From: Idiomarina aquatica
GTDB lineage: Bacteria > Pseudomonadota > Gammaproteobacteria > Enterobacterales > Alteromonadaceae
Reading direction: 5' to 3'
DNA: 64,000 nt
Assembly (NCBI RefSeq): GCF_003987185.1
Contig: NZ_PIPS01000002.1
Coordinates: 248,001 to 312,000, forward strand
Shown here piece by piece: positions 41,254-48,205 of this stretch (positions within the stretch are counted from its first letter, which is position 1; each line of letters opens with the position of its first letter). A model generated the notes under the pieces. That model saw nothing but the letters and a program-made list of their open reading frames with translations, had not been told where the DNA came from and searched no databases. The position numbers were made by a program, and so were the translations under genes.

Positions 41254-42321
41254 ATGACCACTTCGTTGCTAACTATTAAAGCGGGCGCTACTGCCTACCA
41301 ACAGGTTCGTGAGCAGGGCTTACGGGCGGACGATGTTGATTTGTTACTGGGCGCTTCAGGCGGACCTAAATGGTTTGTGTTGCAAGGCATGGATCGTTAC
41401 TTGTTTGGGGACTTCCTGAGTAGCAAGAGTCAGCCGTTGAATACCCTGGGAACTTCAGCCGGTGCGTGGCGATTTGCCGCCCTGGGACAGGACGACCCGG
41501 TTGCGGCCAGTGAATTGTTTGCGCGCCTGTACAGCACGCAAACCTACAGTGAGCATCCTGATCGGCATGAAATTACCCGCGAAGCGAAGAAACTGCTGGA
41601 GCGCTATGTGCCGGCAACCGCCATCGAGCAAATACTCACGCAGGATAGGGTGCACCATCATTTTATCGTAGCGCGCTGTCTGCGTAGCACGGCGGCAGAA
41701 AATAAACGTCAGGTGCTGGGCTTATTATCATCGGCATTTGCTAATTCATTAAACCGAGCAAACTTAGGACGCTATTATGAACGTGTGATGTTTCATCATC
41801 CGCACTCGTCGTTATCCTTTTGCCGTCATTGGCATGACTTGCCGACTCGTTTTGTAGAGCTGGACCGTTCGAACTTTGCTCCGGCGTTATTGGCAACCGG
41901 TTCAATCCCAATGGTACTGGAAGGCGTTCGCGACATTCCCGGTGCTCCGCCTGGTATGTATCGTGACGGCGGTATCACGGACTATCACTTCGACGTTGAT
42001 CTATCGAAAGTCGATGGCTTGGTACTGTACCCGCACTTTCACCAGGAAGTGATCCCCGGCTGGTTTGATAAACGCATGAAGCGTCGCCGGACAACCGGTA
42101 GTGACTGGCCCAACGTGGTGTTTGTGTCGCCGTCGGAACAGTTTGTGAAGTCATTACCCTATGGCAAAATCCCCGATCGTACTGATTTTCAGAAACTACC
42201 GGCAAAGGAACGGATTGAGTATTGGCGTAAGGCCATCGCGGCGGGTCAACGCATGGGAGATGAGTTGCGCGAAGTGATTGAGTCAGGAGCGATTCGTGAG
42301 CGGGTTAGCTTGTGGCAGTAA
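41254..42321 (+). CDS. Patatin-like phospholipase
   Basis: 355 residues. The oxyanion-hole loop GASGGPKW (33-40), nucleophile elbow GTSAG with Ser68 and catalytic Asp238 in YRDGGITDYH make the patatin Ser-Asp dyad. TGSIPMVLEGVRDIPG fits the same fold. It is probably a cytoplasmic lipid acyl hydrolase; no secretion signal is visible. It follows the DUF3392 membrane protein in the same operon, hinting at action on membrane lipid. Confidence 0.87.
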   Translation: MTTSLLTIKAGATAYQQVREQGLRADDVDLLLGASGGPKWFVLQGMDRYLFGDFLSSKSQPLNTLGTSAGAWRFAALGQDDPVAASELFARLYSTQTYSEHPDRHEITREAKKLLERYVPATAIEQILTQDRVHHHFIVARCLRSTAAENKRQVLGLLSSAFANSLNRANLGRYYERVMFHHPHSSLSFCRHWHDLPTRFVELDRSNFAPALLATGSIPMVLEGVRDIPGAPPGMYRDGGITDYHFDVDLSKVDGLVLYPHFHQEVIPGWFDKRMKRRRTTGSDWPNVVFVSPSEQFVKSLPYGKIPDRTDFQKLPAKERIEYWRKAIAAGQRMGDELREVIESGAIRERVSLWQ

Positions 42322-42891: not shown

Positions 42892-44856
42892 ATGACAACA
42901 CCCGATGTAAAGCCAGAAGCAGTAACCAACAGTAACCTCGAACAGCTGATTAATGCCGGCACCGGGCTTACCTTATTTGTCTGGGAAGATTCCGAGCTAT
43001 GGCCCGTTCGTTATGTATCCGACAATGTCGCTGCGGTTTTTGGTTTCACGAAAGAGGAATTCATTCGTCGCGAAGTGCACTACAAGTTCCTTATCCACGA
43101 GGACGATACGGCGCGCGTAAACGACGAGGTAGAGCTGCTGAAATCCGGCAAAACCGGTTATCGGCTGACGCATCAGGACTACCGGGTACGTCACAAAGAC
43201 GGTCATTACGTTTGGGTGACAGATACCACGGTCGTTAAGTACGACGAAAAAACCGGTGTGAATTTGTTGTTCGGTTATCTGATCGACATCACCGAGCGCA
43301 AAGAGCTGGAACTTAAGCTTGAAACTGAGCGCAACCGCCTGAGTCTGTTGTTAGATGCAACACGACTGGGAACCTGGGAGTGGAATCCGCAAACCAATAA
43401 AACGTCTTTTAACGAGCGTTGGGCGAGGATGTTCGGTTATGAGCCGGGCGAACTTGAAGATAATGTCGAAACCTGGTCAAGCCGTTTGCACCCTGACGAT
43501 TATGACAAGGCCTGGCAGGCGATAAAGGACCACCTCGATGGGGTAACACCTTTTTACGAGAGCGAACACCGAATTTTGCACCGTTCTGGTCGCTGGGTTT
43601 ATGTGCTGGACCGCGGACGAATCATCGAACGTGATGCTCAAGGTCGAGCAACCCGCTATGCGGGCACAGTAACGGATGTAACGGAGCAGAAACAGGCAGA
43701 ACTTGATGCTCGTCGAGCGGCACACGCTAAAAATGTGTTTTTAGCCAATATGTCCCACGAAATCCGCACACCGTTGCATGGTATTCTCGGTTTAGCGTCG
43801 GTACTCGAGAACACCGACGTCAGTGATTATCAGAAACGGCTGCTAAGAACGATCAAAAACAGCGGTGACTATCTGTTAAATACACTGAATGATCTGCTTG
43901 ATCTTACCCGTGCCGAAGAAGGTCAACTGAAAATAAAACTGGGCACGCACAGCATTGTGCATATTCTTGAGCACATCCATTCTTTGTTTGAACAACGGGC
44001 GGAAGAAAAAGGCCTGGCGTTCGAGTTTGATATTGCGGATGACCTCCCACGACAAGTCATCATGGATCATTCGCGGGTGATACAAGTCGTCAGTAACTTA
44101 GTGAGCAATGCGATAAAGTTTACCCAACACGGTAAGATTCAGGTGAAAGCCCGTTGGTTGGCAGAGAATGAACGCAAAGGCGAGCTTGAAATCAGCGTGA
44201 CTGACAGTGGTGCCGGTATCCGTGATACGCAGCGCATCTGGCAACTGTTTGAGCAGGAAGATGACGGACTGACGCGCTCGCAGCAAGGCAGTGGTTTGGG
44301 GCTTGCTATTGTCAGAAACTTGGTGCAACTGCTCAGTGGTACCATTCAGGTAGACAGTGAAATGGGCGAAGGCTCCTGTTTTACCGTTTGCTTACCGATG
44401 ACCGTGCATACCGGCAATGCCCCGAGTGATGAAGAACTGTCCGAACTGCTATTGCCGGAACTTGGTCAACACCGCGTACTGGTGGTCGACGATAACAGCA
44501 TTAACCAGATGATCGTGACAGAAATGCTGTTGAGTCTGGGCCAGCAGGTAGAGTCGGTGACCAGTGGCCAAAAGGCGTTGGAAGCGCTGCAACAATCATT
44601 ATTTGACGCTGTATTTATGGATCTGCATATGCCGGGTATGGATGGCATGGAAACCACCAAACAGATCCGCCAGGATAGTGCCATCAAGCAACCCTATATC
44701 ATTGCTCTGACCGCTAACGCGTTCCCGGAAACTCGCACGCAGGCGCTGCGTTCCGGTATGGACGATTACGTGACGAAGCCGTTTGTTAAAGAAGATTTGG
44801 CACGTGTACTTAATCGCATTAATGTGAAAACACAAAGGAAGAAACATGGCATTTAA
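42892..44856 (+). CDS. Hybrid sensor histidine kinase, PAS-PAS-HisKA-HATPase-REC
   Basis: 654 residues with no membrane helix. PAS 1 (about 15-140) and PAS 2 (about 150-275, LDATRLGTWEWNPQTNKT) precede the dimerisation domain with phosphoacceptor H289 (NMSHEIRTPLHG). The ATPase domain has VSNAIKF (N box), DSGAGI (G1) and GSGLGLAIVRNLVQ (G2). The C-terminal receiver has D577 (FMDLHMPGMDG) and a KPF lysine. No separate output regulator or Hpt lies beside it. Its last 11 bases overlap a MoxR ATPase gene, so it may control or be read with that chaperone-like module. Confidence 0.93.
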   Translation: MTTPDVKPEAVTNSNLEQLINAGTGLTLFVWEDSELWPVRYVSDNVAAVFGFTKEEFIRREVHYKFLIHEDDTARVNDEVELLKSGKTGYRLTHQDYRVRHKDGHYVWVTDTTVVKYDEKTGVNLLFGYLIDITERKELELKLETERNRLSLLLDATRLGTWEWNPQTNKTSFNERWARMFGYEPGELEDNVETWSSRLHPDDYDKAWQAIKDHLDGVTPFYESEHRILHRSGRWVYVLDRGRIIERDAQGRATRYAGTVTDVTEQKQAELDARRAAHAKNVFLANMSHEIRTPLHGILGLASVLENTDVSDYQKRLLRTIKNSGDYLLNTLNDLLDLTRAEEGQLKIKLGTHSIVHILEHIHSLFEQRAEEKGLAFEFDIADDLPRQVIMDHSRVIQVVSNLVSNAIKFTQHGKIQVKARWLAENERKGELEISVTDSGAGIRDTQRIWQLFEQEDDGLTRSQQGSGLGLAIVRNLVQLLSGTIQVDSEMGEGSCFTVCLPMTVHTGNAPSDEELSELLLPELGQHRVLVVDDNSINQMIVTEMLLSLGQQVESVTSGQKALEALQQSLFDAVFMDLHMPGMDGMETTKQIRQDSAIKQPYIIALTANAFPETRTQALRSGMDDYVTKPFVKEDLARVLNRINVKTQRKKHGI

Positions 44857-45676
44857 TAGTACTGATAGCTATATCGTATCAGAACAACTGGCAAGTGCGG
44901 TAAACGCCGCTGTAACGCTGCAAAAACCACTGCTGATAAAAGGCGAACCGGGCACCGGCAAAACACGGCTGGCGCAGGAGTTGGCAGACTCATTAAATAC
45001 CGAGCTGCTGCAGTGGTCGATAAAGTCCACCACCAAAGCTCAGCAGGGACTTTATGAGTACGATGCCGTGTCGCGTTTGCGTGACAGTCAGCTTGGCAGT
45101 GACAAAGTTCATGACATCAGTAATTACATAAAACCCGGTAAGCTGTGGCAAGCGTTTACGGCCGAAAAACGACCCGTACTGTTGATCGATGAAATCGATA
45201 AAGCCGATATTGAGTTTCCTAATGACTTGCTGCATGAACTTGATCAAATGGCGTTTCATGTCTACGAAACCGGTGAGCACATAGAGGCTCGACAACGACC
45301 CATTGTGATCATTACGTCGAATAATGAAAAAGCCTTACCGGATGCGTTTTTGCGGCGCTGTTTTTTTCATTTTATTCAGTTTCCTGATGCGGAAACGCTG
45401 GCGCAAATTGCGCAGGTACACTATCCGAATTTGCATCAGCAACTGCTGGAACAGGCATTGGAATTGTTCTTTGATTTACGCCACACGCCGGGTCTTAAGA
45501 AAAAGCCGTCAACCTCGGAGCTGTTGGACTGGATTCGCCTATTGGTGGCAGAAGACATCAGTGCCGAACAATTGCAGCAATCACGCCAACGCAACAGCGC
45601 CATTCCGCTGACCGGGGCGCTACTAAAACACGAGCAGGACATCGAGCTGGTTGAAAGGTTACGCCGTGTTAATTGA
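44846..45676 (+). CDS. MoxR-family AAA+ ATPase
   Basis: 276 residues. Walker A is GEPGTGKT (33-40), Walker B is VLLIDEIDKA (111-120, D115 and E116), with NEKALPDAFLRRCFFHFIQFPD holding the arginine-finger region. MoxR proteins pair with vWA proteins to insert cofactors or remodel complexes; this pairing is reproduced here because the next gene is a vWA protein overlapping by 11 bases. It overlaps the hybrid kinase upstream by 11 bases. Confidence 0.92.
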   Translation: MAFNSTDSYIVSEQLASAVNAAVTLQKPLLIKGEPGTGKTRLAQELADSLNTELLQWSIKSTTKAQQGLYEYDAVSRLRDSQLGSDKVHDISNYIKPGKLWQAFTAEKRPVLLIDEIDKADIEFPNDLLHELDQMAFHVYETGEHIEARQRPIVIITSNNEKALPDAFLRRCFFHFIQFPDAETLAQIAQVHYPNLHQQLLEQALELFFDLRHTPGLKKKPSTSELLDWIRLLVAEDISAEQLQQSRQRNSAIPLTGALLKHEQDIELVERLRRVN

Positions 45677-46835
45677 GTTTTTTCAGTTGCTGCGTGAGCA
45701 GGGCGTTAAGACCACCATCACTGAGTGGCTGGATTTACTGGAAGCGCTTAAGCAACGAGTGATTTTTGCCGATGTCGATGAGTTTTATTATCTCAGCCGA
45801 ATGATTCTGGTAAAAGATGAAAGCCTTTATGACCGCTTTGATCGTGCGTTTGCACAGTATGTCGAGCGTGTTGCAGCGACCGATGTCGCGGACAAAATTC
45901 CTAAAGAATGGCTGGAAAATGCGTTAAAACGCGAGCTTTCAGAGCAAGACAAAGCCCGTATCAAGCAATTGGGTAGCCTTGAAGAGCTATTGAAAACCTT
46001 TCAGGAACGCCTGCGAGAGCAGCAGGAACGCCATCAAGGGGGCTCCAAGTGGATTGGTACCGGCGGTACTTCCCCGTTTGGCGCCTACGGGTATCATCCC
46101 GGTGGTATTCGCATTGGCCAGCACGGTAATCGCAACCGCAGTGCGGCGAAAGTTTGGGATAAGCGCGAGTTTGCCGATTTGGATGATGACGCCAGGCTCG
46201 AACAGCGCGGTTTCCAGATTGCGTTGCGTAATCTCCGTCAGTTTGCGCGCACAGGAGCAGCCACTGAACTTGATATGGATGCGACGCTCACGGCAACGGC
46301 GCGTCAGGGAGGGCTGCTCGACCTACAATGGCAACCAGAGCGACACAACGCCATAAAAATCCTCTTGTTGCTGGATGTTGGTGGCTCGATGGACGATCAC
46401 ATTTATCAAGTAGAGCAGCTATTTACCGCGCTCAAAGGAGAGTTTCGGCATCTGGAGCTGTATTACTTTCACAACTGTCCTTATGAGGGGCTTTGGCGGA
46501 GTAACCGTCGCCGTCGTACTGAGCAGATCCCGACCGAACAGGTGATCCAGACCTACGGTGAGGACTACAAATTGATTTTTGTCGGTGATGCCACCATGGG
46601 GCCTTATGAGATTGCCTATCCAGGCGGCAGCGTCGAACACTGGAATCAAGAGCCGGGGCAAGTTTGGTTGCAGCGATTATTGCGTAAATTTCCGAAGGCG
46701 GTGTGGCTTAATCCGCAACCGCAGGCGCATTGGCGCTACTACCCGTCCGTTGGCATGATTCAGGAAATTCTCTCAGAGCGGATGCAGCCATTGACATTAA
46801 GCGGTCTGCAGCAAGCGATTGAGGTGATCAAATAG
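45666..46835 (+). CDS. von Willebrand A (CoxE-like) protein
   Basis: 389 residues starting at GTG 45666, preceded by GAAAGG; a TTG at 45651 would add five residues. An N-terminal helical region (about 1-200) precedes a vWA domain with MIDAS motif DVGGSMDD at 237-244. KLIFVGDATMGPYEIAYPGGS and WRYYPSVGMIQEIL fit the CoxE/VWA-MoxR partner family. It probably works with the AAA+ ATPase, whose gene overlaps its start. It shares one base with the PLD-like gene that follows. Confidence 0.9.
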   Translation: MLIEFFQLLREQGVKTTITEWLDLLEALKQRVIFADVDEFYYLSRMILVKDESLYDRFDRAFAQYVERVAATDVADKIPKEWLENALKRELSEQDKARIKQLGSLEELLKTFQERLREQQERHQGGSKWIGTGGTSPFGAYGYHPGGIRIGQHGNRNRSAAKVWDKREFADLDDDARLEQRGFQIALRNLRQFARTGAATELDMDATLTATARQGGLLDLQWQPERHNAIKILLLLDVGGSMDDHIYQVEQLFTALKGEFRHLELYYFHNCPYEGLWRSNRRRRTEQIPTEQVIQTYGEDYKLIFVGDATMGPYEIAYPGGSVEHWNQEPGQVWLQRLLRKFPKAVWLNPQPQAHWRYYPSVGMIQEILSERMQPLTLSGLQQAIEVIK

Positions 46836-48205
46836 TGAACGCAACGACGGCTAAGTTTCTGTTACTTGAAGAAGCTCACGATAGCTTACTCGAGCGCATT
46901 AAGCTTTGCCGTCAGGCGCAGCAATGCATCCATTTACAATATTATATTTGGCGTGACGACATCAGTGGTCTGACACTGATGAACGAGCTGGTCAAAGCCA
47001 GCCGTCGGGGCGTGCAGGTTAAGTTGCTGCTGGATGACTTCCAAAGTCGAAGCGTCGAGCTATTGCTCCGAGATTTACAACGGCGGGCGAACTTCTCCAT
47101 TAAGCTGTTTAACCCGCTGCGCCATCGGCGTTTACGCTGGCTTAACTACTTTCTTGATTTTAAACGCGTTAACCGGCGTATGCACAATAAAGCGATGATT
47201 GTGGATAATCGCATCGCGATTGTCGGAGGTCGTAACGTCGGTGATGAATATTTTGGCACTCATGCCGGGGAACTGTTCTCAGACCTAGACGTGGCGGTCA
47301 GTGGTGAATTGGTCAACGAAATTAACCGCGACTGGCTAAGCTACTGGAATTGTGAACTGGCGGTTGAGTTGAGCCATATTCGTGGGCGTAGCCCGACCGA
47401 AGCTTTTATTCAACGCTGGCGACGGCAGCAACAACAGGAACAGGTTCAGCAACTGCGTGATTTTGTCATCAAAGAGCCGATAAAAACGGAACATTCAGAA
47501 GAGGACTGGATAACGGCAAAAGCGGTTTGGATCAGTGATGATCCGCAAAAAGCCAGTGTTTCCCGCAAGCCTCAACGGCTTATGACACAACAGATGACTC
47601 GTATTCTGGGCCGTGCGCAGCAGCAGGTGCGTATGGTGTCGCCTTATTTTGTGCCAACGTCTAACGGTGTCCGCGAGTTGGAACAACTCACTGAAAAGGG
47701 CGTCGATGTGCAGGTACTGACCAACTCTCTGGCGGCGACTGACGTTCCGGCTGTACATGCGGGCTATCAGCGCAGCAGACGGCGTTTACTCATGGCCGGA
47801 GTGAAATTGTTCGAATTACGCCGGCTTGAGGACACCACAGAACAAAAAGCGGTTCGCCCTTATTTTCGCCGATCAGCAACCAGCTTACATGCGAAAACCA
47901 TCACTGTGGATGAGGCTCGCGTATTTGTCGGTTCGTTTAATTTCGATCCGCGCTCAGCTCAAATTAATACTGAGGCGGGGTTGATCATCGACTCACCGCA
48001 AATTGCCAAGCGCATCAATGCGATATTCGAACATGAACTGCCGCTAAAAAGCTATCAGCCAAGGCTTAATCGCTTTTACAAACTGTATTGGCTGGATAAA
48101 AGCAAAGTGCCGGCCCGTCGTCTGTACAAGGAACCAAACGCAGGTCTGGCGCGCCGGATCATTGTCTGGTTAACGGCGCGCCTGCCGGTCGAACATTTGC
48201 TGTGA
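46835..48205 (+). CDS. Phospholipase D-like protein (cardiolipin-synthase family)
   Basis: 456 residues starting at GTG 46835. Two HKD motifs are complete: H117, K119, D124 (MHNKAMIVDNRIAIVGG) and H352, K354, D359 (LHAKTITVDEARVFVGSFN). There are no obvious N-terminal membrane helices of the kind in ClsA, so it is closer to the soluble or peripheral ClsC/YmdC type. It could make or hydrolyse phospholipids. The TAGTG overlap with the vWA gene implies coupling and ends a four-gene unit. Confidence 0.9.
   Translation: MNATTAKFLLLEEAHDSLLERIKLCRQAQQCIHLQYYIWRDDISGLTLMNELVKASRRGVQVKLLLDDFQSRSVELLLRDLQRRANFSIKLFNPLRHRRLRWLNYFLDFKRVNRRMHNKAMIVDNRIAIVGGRNVGDEYFGTHAGELFSDLDVAVSGELVNEINRDWLSYWNCELAVELSHIRGRSPTEAFIQRWRRQQQQEQVQQLRDFVIKEPIKTEHSEEDWITAKAVWISDDPQKASVSRKPQRLMTQQMTRILGRAQQQVRMVSPYFVPTSNGVRELEQLTEKGVDVQVLTNSLAATDVPAVHAGYQRSRRRLLMAGVKLFELRRLEDTTEQKAVRPYFRRSATSLHAKTITVDEARVFVGSFNFDPRSAQINTEAGLIIDSPQIAKRINAIFEHELPLKSYQPRLNRFYKLYWLDKSKVPARRLYKEPNAGLARRIIVWLTARLPVEHLL

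Follow-up and report, generated by a model that had tools for sequence, protein, structure and literature searches.

The closest described relatives in design of the locus considered here are pairs of a MoxR-type AAA+ ATPase and a von Willebrand factor A (vWA) protein. RavA-ViaA of E. coli is likewise encoded by a two-gene MoxR-vWA operon and has a published tie to phosphatidylglycerol (PG), phosphatidic acid (PA) and cardiolipin (CL): PG is bound by RavA, PA and to a lesser extent CL by ViaA, and overproduction of ViaA raised cardiolipin 6-10 fold (PMC9489729). CoxD-CoxE and NorQ-NorD also combine a MoxR protein with a CoxE-like vWA protein, and the working of such pairs has been treated for NorQD (PMC13036017, PMC9976466). 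PA2707 represents one of seven named MoxR subfamilies (PMC3893208), and in Pseudomonas its gene is close to that of PA2709, a cysteine synthase (PMC12800425). As for the lipid enzyme, E. coli ClsC makes cardiolipin by moving a phosphatidyl group from phosphatidylethanolamine (PE) to PG (PMC8027125). Here we analyse a stretch of 64,000 nucleotides from Idiomarina aquatica (contig NZ_PIPS01000002.1, positions 248,001 to 312,000; hereafter the window), in which a MoxR-vWA pair stands between a hybrid histidine kinase and a putative ClsC-like cardiolipin synthase in a block of four overlapping genes:

42892..44856, + strand: hybrid histidine kinase of PAS-PAS-HisKA-HATPase-REC layout, 654 aa (open reading frame and Pfam)
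44846..45676, + strand: MoxR-type AAA+ ATPase, 276 aa (open reading frame; Pfam AAA_5 and AAA)
45666..46835, + strand: CoxE-like vWA protein, 389 aa from GTG 45666 (open reading frame, Pfam, alignment and structure prediction)
46835..48205, + strand: putative ClsC-like cardiolipin synthase, 456 aa, GTG start, two HxKxxxxD motifs (open reading frame, Pfam and E. coli comparison)

An earlier note, made from the letters of this DNA, had described four genes with overlaps of 11, 11 and 1 bases; open reading frames and sequence agree with it, and Pfam supports every domain of the composition that it gave (hybrid kinase, MoxR ATPase, CoxE-like vWA protein and two-HKD protein). The kinase matches PAS_3 in two stretches, HisKA, HATPase_c and Response_reg, and an HPt domain was not found in it by Pfam. 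The vWA protein matches VWA_CoxE with 33.8 bits (cut-off 26.4), and GTG 45666 is preferable as its start to TTG 45651 of the listed frame (394 aa), because the 11-base overlap then results and the alignment of homologues begins there. The fourth protein matches PLDc_2 in two stretches, and its start shares one base with the vWA stop. Promoter-like sites number 2 against 5.5 expected and terminator-like sites 7 against 7.3 expected, counts that carry no information. The four genes would probably be read as a single transcript.

The four-gene block is a genuine inherited unit. Among 19 genomes of the genus, the window's own included, the vWA gene is present in all as a single copy and is always adjoined by a gene for a MoxR-type AAA+ ATPase with Walker motifs, the contiguous block of four is found in 16, and clsC lies directly behind the vWA gene in 16, being absent from that spot in three genomes (G002, G016 and G017). 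The vWA stop overlaps the clsC start in all 16 operonic cases, by 4 bases in 14 of them and by 1 base in the window and G010. This contiguity and overlap go beyond chance, and they are kept although the operonic phospholipase D (PLD)-type proteins have diverged to as low as 59% identity to the window's copy and the genes downstream are variable, a DUF885 or GGDEF gene being missing from several genomes of the genus. The earlier note was right about the operon-like layout. The kinase gene is found directly upstream of MoxR in 17 genomes, with a spacing of -14 to +65, and one gene away in G016; its H-box SHExR and receiver motif MDxHMP are each conserved in 18/18 copies, as are GEPGxGK, LLIDExDKAD and TSNNE, each in 19/19 MoxR copies. 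G017 is without the kinase and has a 144-aa receiver-like frame (35 bits; L108 6071-6505) in its place. G002 has lost clsC together with the DUF885 gene that follows it, but retains kinase, MoxR and vWA.

The vWA protein consists of a helical N-terminal part, a low-confidence stretch (residues 119-169) and a C-terminal vWA domain. Its metal site reads D-x-G-G-S-M, with D237, G239, G240 and M242 invariant in 40/40 aligned sequences and S241 nearly so, whereas the motif given for vWA domains is DxSxS (PMC9976466); F268, H269 and N270 of an FHNC motif are invariant in the same alignment. The predicted structure has a mean pLDDT of 72.5 and a pTM of 0.50. Searching the PDB for similar folds returned nothing at E<=0.001, and the top match, a vWA domain, and the second, a NorQD chain (E 0.0067), carry little weight; the sequence search of the PDB gave no match at E<=1.

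The product of the last gene, called a PLD-like enzyme in the earlier note, is indeed of the two-HKD PLD type and can be named more exactly: compared with E. coli K-12, it is 38.8% identical to ClsC (residues 11-456), 26.6% to ClsB and 23.2% to ClsA, and both HxKxxxxD motifs are present in 16/16 operonic copies. Judged on this kinship, it is probably a cardiolipin synthase of the ClsC kind. E. coli clsC, whose product is thus 39% identical to the window's, also lies directly behind another gene, ymdB, but the latter encodes a macrodomain protein, whereas the neighbour here is the MoxR-vWA pair. A strongly hydrophobic segment is absent from all 16 operonic copies (19-residue Kyte-Doolittle windows never exceed 1.27; the maxima are 1.28 in E. 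coli ClsC and 2.55 in ClsA). In the window's own genome, PLDc_2 matches only the operonic ClsC and one 706-aa frame, presumably polyphosphate kinase, going by its length. Further, unlinked ClsC copies occur in three genomes of the genus (G010, G013 and G015). Two of them, at L110 5164-6723 (G015) and L111 5178-6737 (G010), begin with what we read as a lipoprotein-like N-terminus, where the Kyte-Doolittle maximum reaches 1.82. They are 98.8% identical, while the operonic ClsC proteins of the same two genomes sit in different sub-groups, which suggests recent horizontal transfer. The further ClsC-like paralogue of G013 (G013:C23:5120-6346; L168) has internal stop codons and is apparently a pseudogene. 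G017, which lacks the operonic gene, encodes a ClsA-like, PLDc_N-containing protein elsewhere (G017:C5, L167 1094-2668).

Outside the genus, the picture is different: ClsC has no constant association with the MoxR-vWA machine, and relatives keep the parts separate. A scan of the genomes of 84,980 species gave at least 588 confirmed candidates, of which the best 80 loci were kept. These are at most 66% identical, the window's near relatives having seemingly been left out, and most likely lie outside the genus, although two of them (L012 and L016) carry Idiomarina names. Within flanks of up to 8 kb, shorter near contig ends, the DNA of none of the 80 loci has a PLD match; MoxR is matched in 69, not always adjacent to vWA, and the kinase has a good match in a single locus (L016, 569 bits) and weak ones of 34-65 bits in five. 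Of 79 genomes surveyed in the family, 61 have the vWA gene (a fragment in one of them) and 18, three of which belong to the genus, have a long ClsC-type match above 190 bits; in a survey of 158 genomes of the order, 71 pass E 1e-30 for ClsC, 25 for vWA and 11 for both. The two genes are linked in none of the 17 genomes outside the genus that have both (9 from the family survey and 8 more from the order survey): 7 carry both on a single contig, separated by at least 26 kb, and the other 10 have them on separate contigs, which strictly could still join at their ends. ClsC relatives also occur without vWA: the family survey shows this in 6 of the 15 ClsC-bearing genomes that do not belong to the genus, the order survey in 60 of the 71 at E<=1e-30. 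The earlier note had taken the PLD protein for the obvious client of the MoxR-vWA pair; with the pair lacking it in G002, G016 and G017 and unlinked from it in 17 further genomes, this is not supported, and the outcome by which that note would have been refuted, the PLD gene or the kinase standing apart from the pair in related genomes, was observed. Given a vWA gene in 19/19 genomes of the genus with ClsC beside it in 16, and the failure to find PLD beside it in the 80 loci or linkage in the 17 genomes, ClsC is best seen as a late recruit and not as the general client of the pair.

The gene trees fit such a recruitment. A quick tree of MoxR+vWA accounts for the linkage with two changes, of which a single gain and, in G002, a single loss are the simplest version; the branches of G016 and G017 are long, G017 falling among other genera, so that their positions are unsure. 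The operonic ClsC proteins cluster together (SH-aLRT 81) and divide into the four sub-groups that MoxR+vWA also shows. Two genomes of a related genus, G087 and G044, carry a ClsC relative in a dapE-exonuclease-patatin neighbourhood like that of the window's operon, with the vWA gene 89 and 26 kb away, respectively; in G028 and L016 it is the pair that sits in this neighbourhood, without ClsC, and in G028 it lies behind patatin and also lacks the kinase. Going by these arrangements, the operon was probably formed when genes of one neighbourhood came together. An old MoxR-vWA pair would have been joined to the kinase and ClsC, most simply once in this genus. In the window, a patatin-like protein of 355 aa is encoded at 41254-42321 (24.5 bits, below the Pfam cut-off of 27.7); such a gene is found upstream of the MoxR-vWA pair in 19/19 genomes of the genus, window included, and is a possible second lipid enzyme.

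As the best explanation, which we hold tentatively, we propose that a MoxR-vWA remodelling machine and the PLD-type cardiolipin synthase usual in the genus are co-expressed in a sensor-linked way. The PAS-PAS hybrid kinase would sense a signal, and the operon would fix how much remodelling machine is made relative to synthase; ClsC would dock on the membrane's inner face and make cardiolipin from PG and PE, while the MoxR ring and its vWA adaptor would act at the same membrane on their own, older client and not on ClsC. We place this co-functional co-expression ahead of the other readings because the unit has persisted through turnover of the genes behind it, yet ClsC, unlike the pair, has been lost within the genus. 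Ordinary co-transcription, in which ClsC came from an ancestral patatin neighbourhood, was rearranged behind the pair and at most shares its transcript, with kinase, pair and ClsC working apart, is unlikely but deserves serious consideration. It would account for the neighbourhoods of G087, G044 and G028 and for the drifting space between kinase and MoxR; however, the gene order has survived in 16/19 genomes despite the missing DUF885 or GGDEF gene in several, and the overlap kept in every operonic case is not needed for hitch-hiking. That same overlap would favour equal synthesis and co-assembly if ClsC were a newly acquired true client, bound by the vWA protein and remodelled or activated by the MoxR ATPase. 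This too we think rather unlikely, although the operonic ClsC, having no strongly hydrophobic segment, might encounter the pair in the cytosol, the ClsC and MoxR+vWA trees are congruent, and E. coli clones carrying ymdB make more ClsC (PMC8027125). The evidence from G002, where ClsC was lost, cuts both ways: its MoxR+vWA end branch (0.044) is longer than those of its five nearest relatives (0.0018-0.026), but its vWA protein resembles the window's no less than theirs do (76% and 75% identity). Moreover, the pair would have had to change or add a client recently, and it does without ClsC in 3/19 genomes of the genus, as ClsC relatives elsewhere do without vWA. A sensor-controlled cardiolipin switch, with the MoxR-vWA machine directly driving or gating the synthase, appears doubtful.

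A conflict or anti-phage system, in which a PLD effector would be held by a MoxR-vWA switch, is highly improbable. MoxR-vWA conflict systems exist (PMC7159879), and the earlier note had alluded to them. The PLD protein matches DrmC models (best 68 bits, E 1.8e-19 in PADLOC; 84.6 bits in NCBIfam), MoxR matches IetA/IteA and TRIP13 models (~30 bits) and bpMoxR (20.8 bits), and the vWA protein matches SAV_2336_NTERM with 42.9 bits against a cut-off of 200. However, every such match that has a curated cut-off falls below it (DrmC 84.6 vs 133, bpMoxR 20.8 vs 27 bits), the PLD protein scores higher with cardiolipin synthase models (143.5 bits) than with DrmC, and E. coli ClsC is its kin over the full length. 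The vWA protein has no PADLOC match and, by Pfam, VWA_CoxE only, with no third core component or effector domain of the VMAP, iSTAND, FtsH or beta-propeller kinds of conflict system (VMAP and iSTAND being judged by Pfam names); its single copy in 19/19 genomes and the congruent trees also speak against conflict. On these scores, and with no PADLOC match to vWA, we rejected a defence system, and little was found for the idea as first raised.

Several observations weigh against the co-expression that we prefer. The NCBIfam cardiolipin synthase models all score below their cut-offs (TIGR04265 143.5 vs 290 bits, the ClsB model 116.5 vs 281 bits), so that the label 'ClsC-like' rests on kinship; a ClsC-named model is absent among the listed NCBIfam matches. 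The group of operonic ClsC proteins has moderate support, with long branches nearby. PLDc_2 matches nothing in G002 and G016 except a long frame, of 695 and 718 aa respectively; the pair is thus kept there with no PLDc_2 match besides these frames, and joint action would be dispensable. A third CDP-alcohol phosphatidyltransferase gene (PF01066) is found in 16/19 genomes of the genus; it is present with and without operonic ClsC and does not track its loss, and replacement of the lost synthase by an enzyme of this type was rejected. The parallel with RavA-ViaA is an analogy only: the window's pair has no phmmer match to RavA or ViaA at E<=10 (best blastp E 0.67), on which ground kinship was rejected, and the vWA protein lacks the basic C-terminus of ViaA (net charge 0 vs +5 over the last 20 residues). 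The authors of the RavA-ViaA study themselves caution that membrane stress from overproduction may explain the rise in cardiolipin (PMC9489729). In K-12, no cardiolipin synthase gene lies within the 8 kb surrounding RavA-ViaA.

The neighbours of the pair elsewhere were clustered in 84 loci (the best 80 and 4 of the genus), with Pfam run on one member per cluster. A PALP gene, pyridoxal-phosphate-dependent and in our reading cysteine-synthase-like, is found in 16/84 loci and recalls PA2707 near PA2709. This likeness by neighbour gene only is a hint of membership in the PA2707 subfamily; ClsC is not mentioned in the available parts of the published descriptions of the latter (PMC12800425, PMC3893208). 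In 8 loci (L024-L028, L031, L032, L040), the pair is followed downstream by a MobA-like gene, accompanied in 4 of those 8 by XdhC, and a molybdopterin oxidoreductase lies upstream in 4 (L043, L047, L063, L071). The XdhC/MobA genes near the pair in some Alteromonadales recall CoxDE, and the MobA-like, XdhC and molybdopterin oxidoreductase neighbours are a lead to the pair's client in those genera. In the genus itself, a Mo-hydroxylase client is unlikely, and maturation of such an enzyme, as for CoxDE, was rejected, since PF02738 and PF02625 are each found in 0/19 genomes.

The earlier note knew of no described system with this composition, and our full-text search, with most subscription journals beyond its reach, found none either; the sole match for MoxR together with cardiolipin synthase was the RavA-ViaA study (PMC9489729), and the literature looked at did not assign a client to this widespread MoxR-vWA pair. 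The locus joins the pair, as an operon, to a nameable lipid enzyme, presumably of the ClsC kind. If the doubtful switch were true, lipid control would be a second, independently evolved use of MoxR-vWA beside RavA-ViaA. With its small genome and a single candidate for a PLD-type cardiolipin synthase by Pfam, this bacterium may open the puzzling tie between MoxR-vWA and cardiolipin, seen in RavA-ViaA, to genetic testing.

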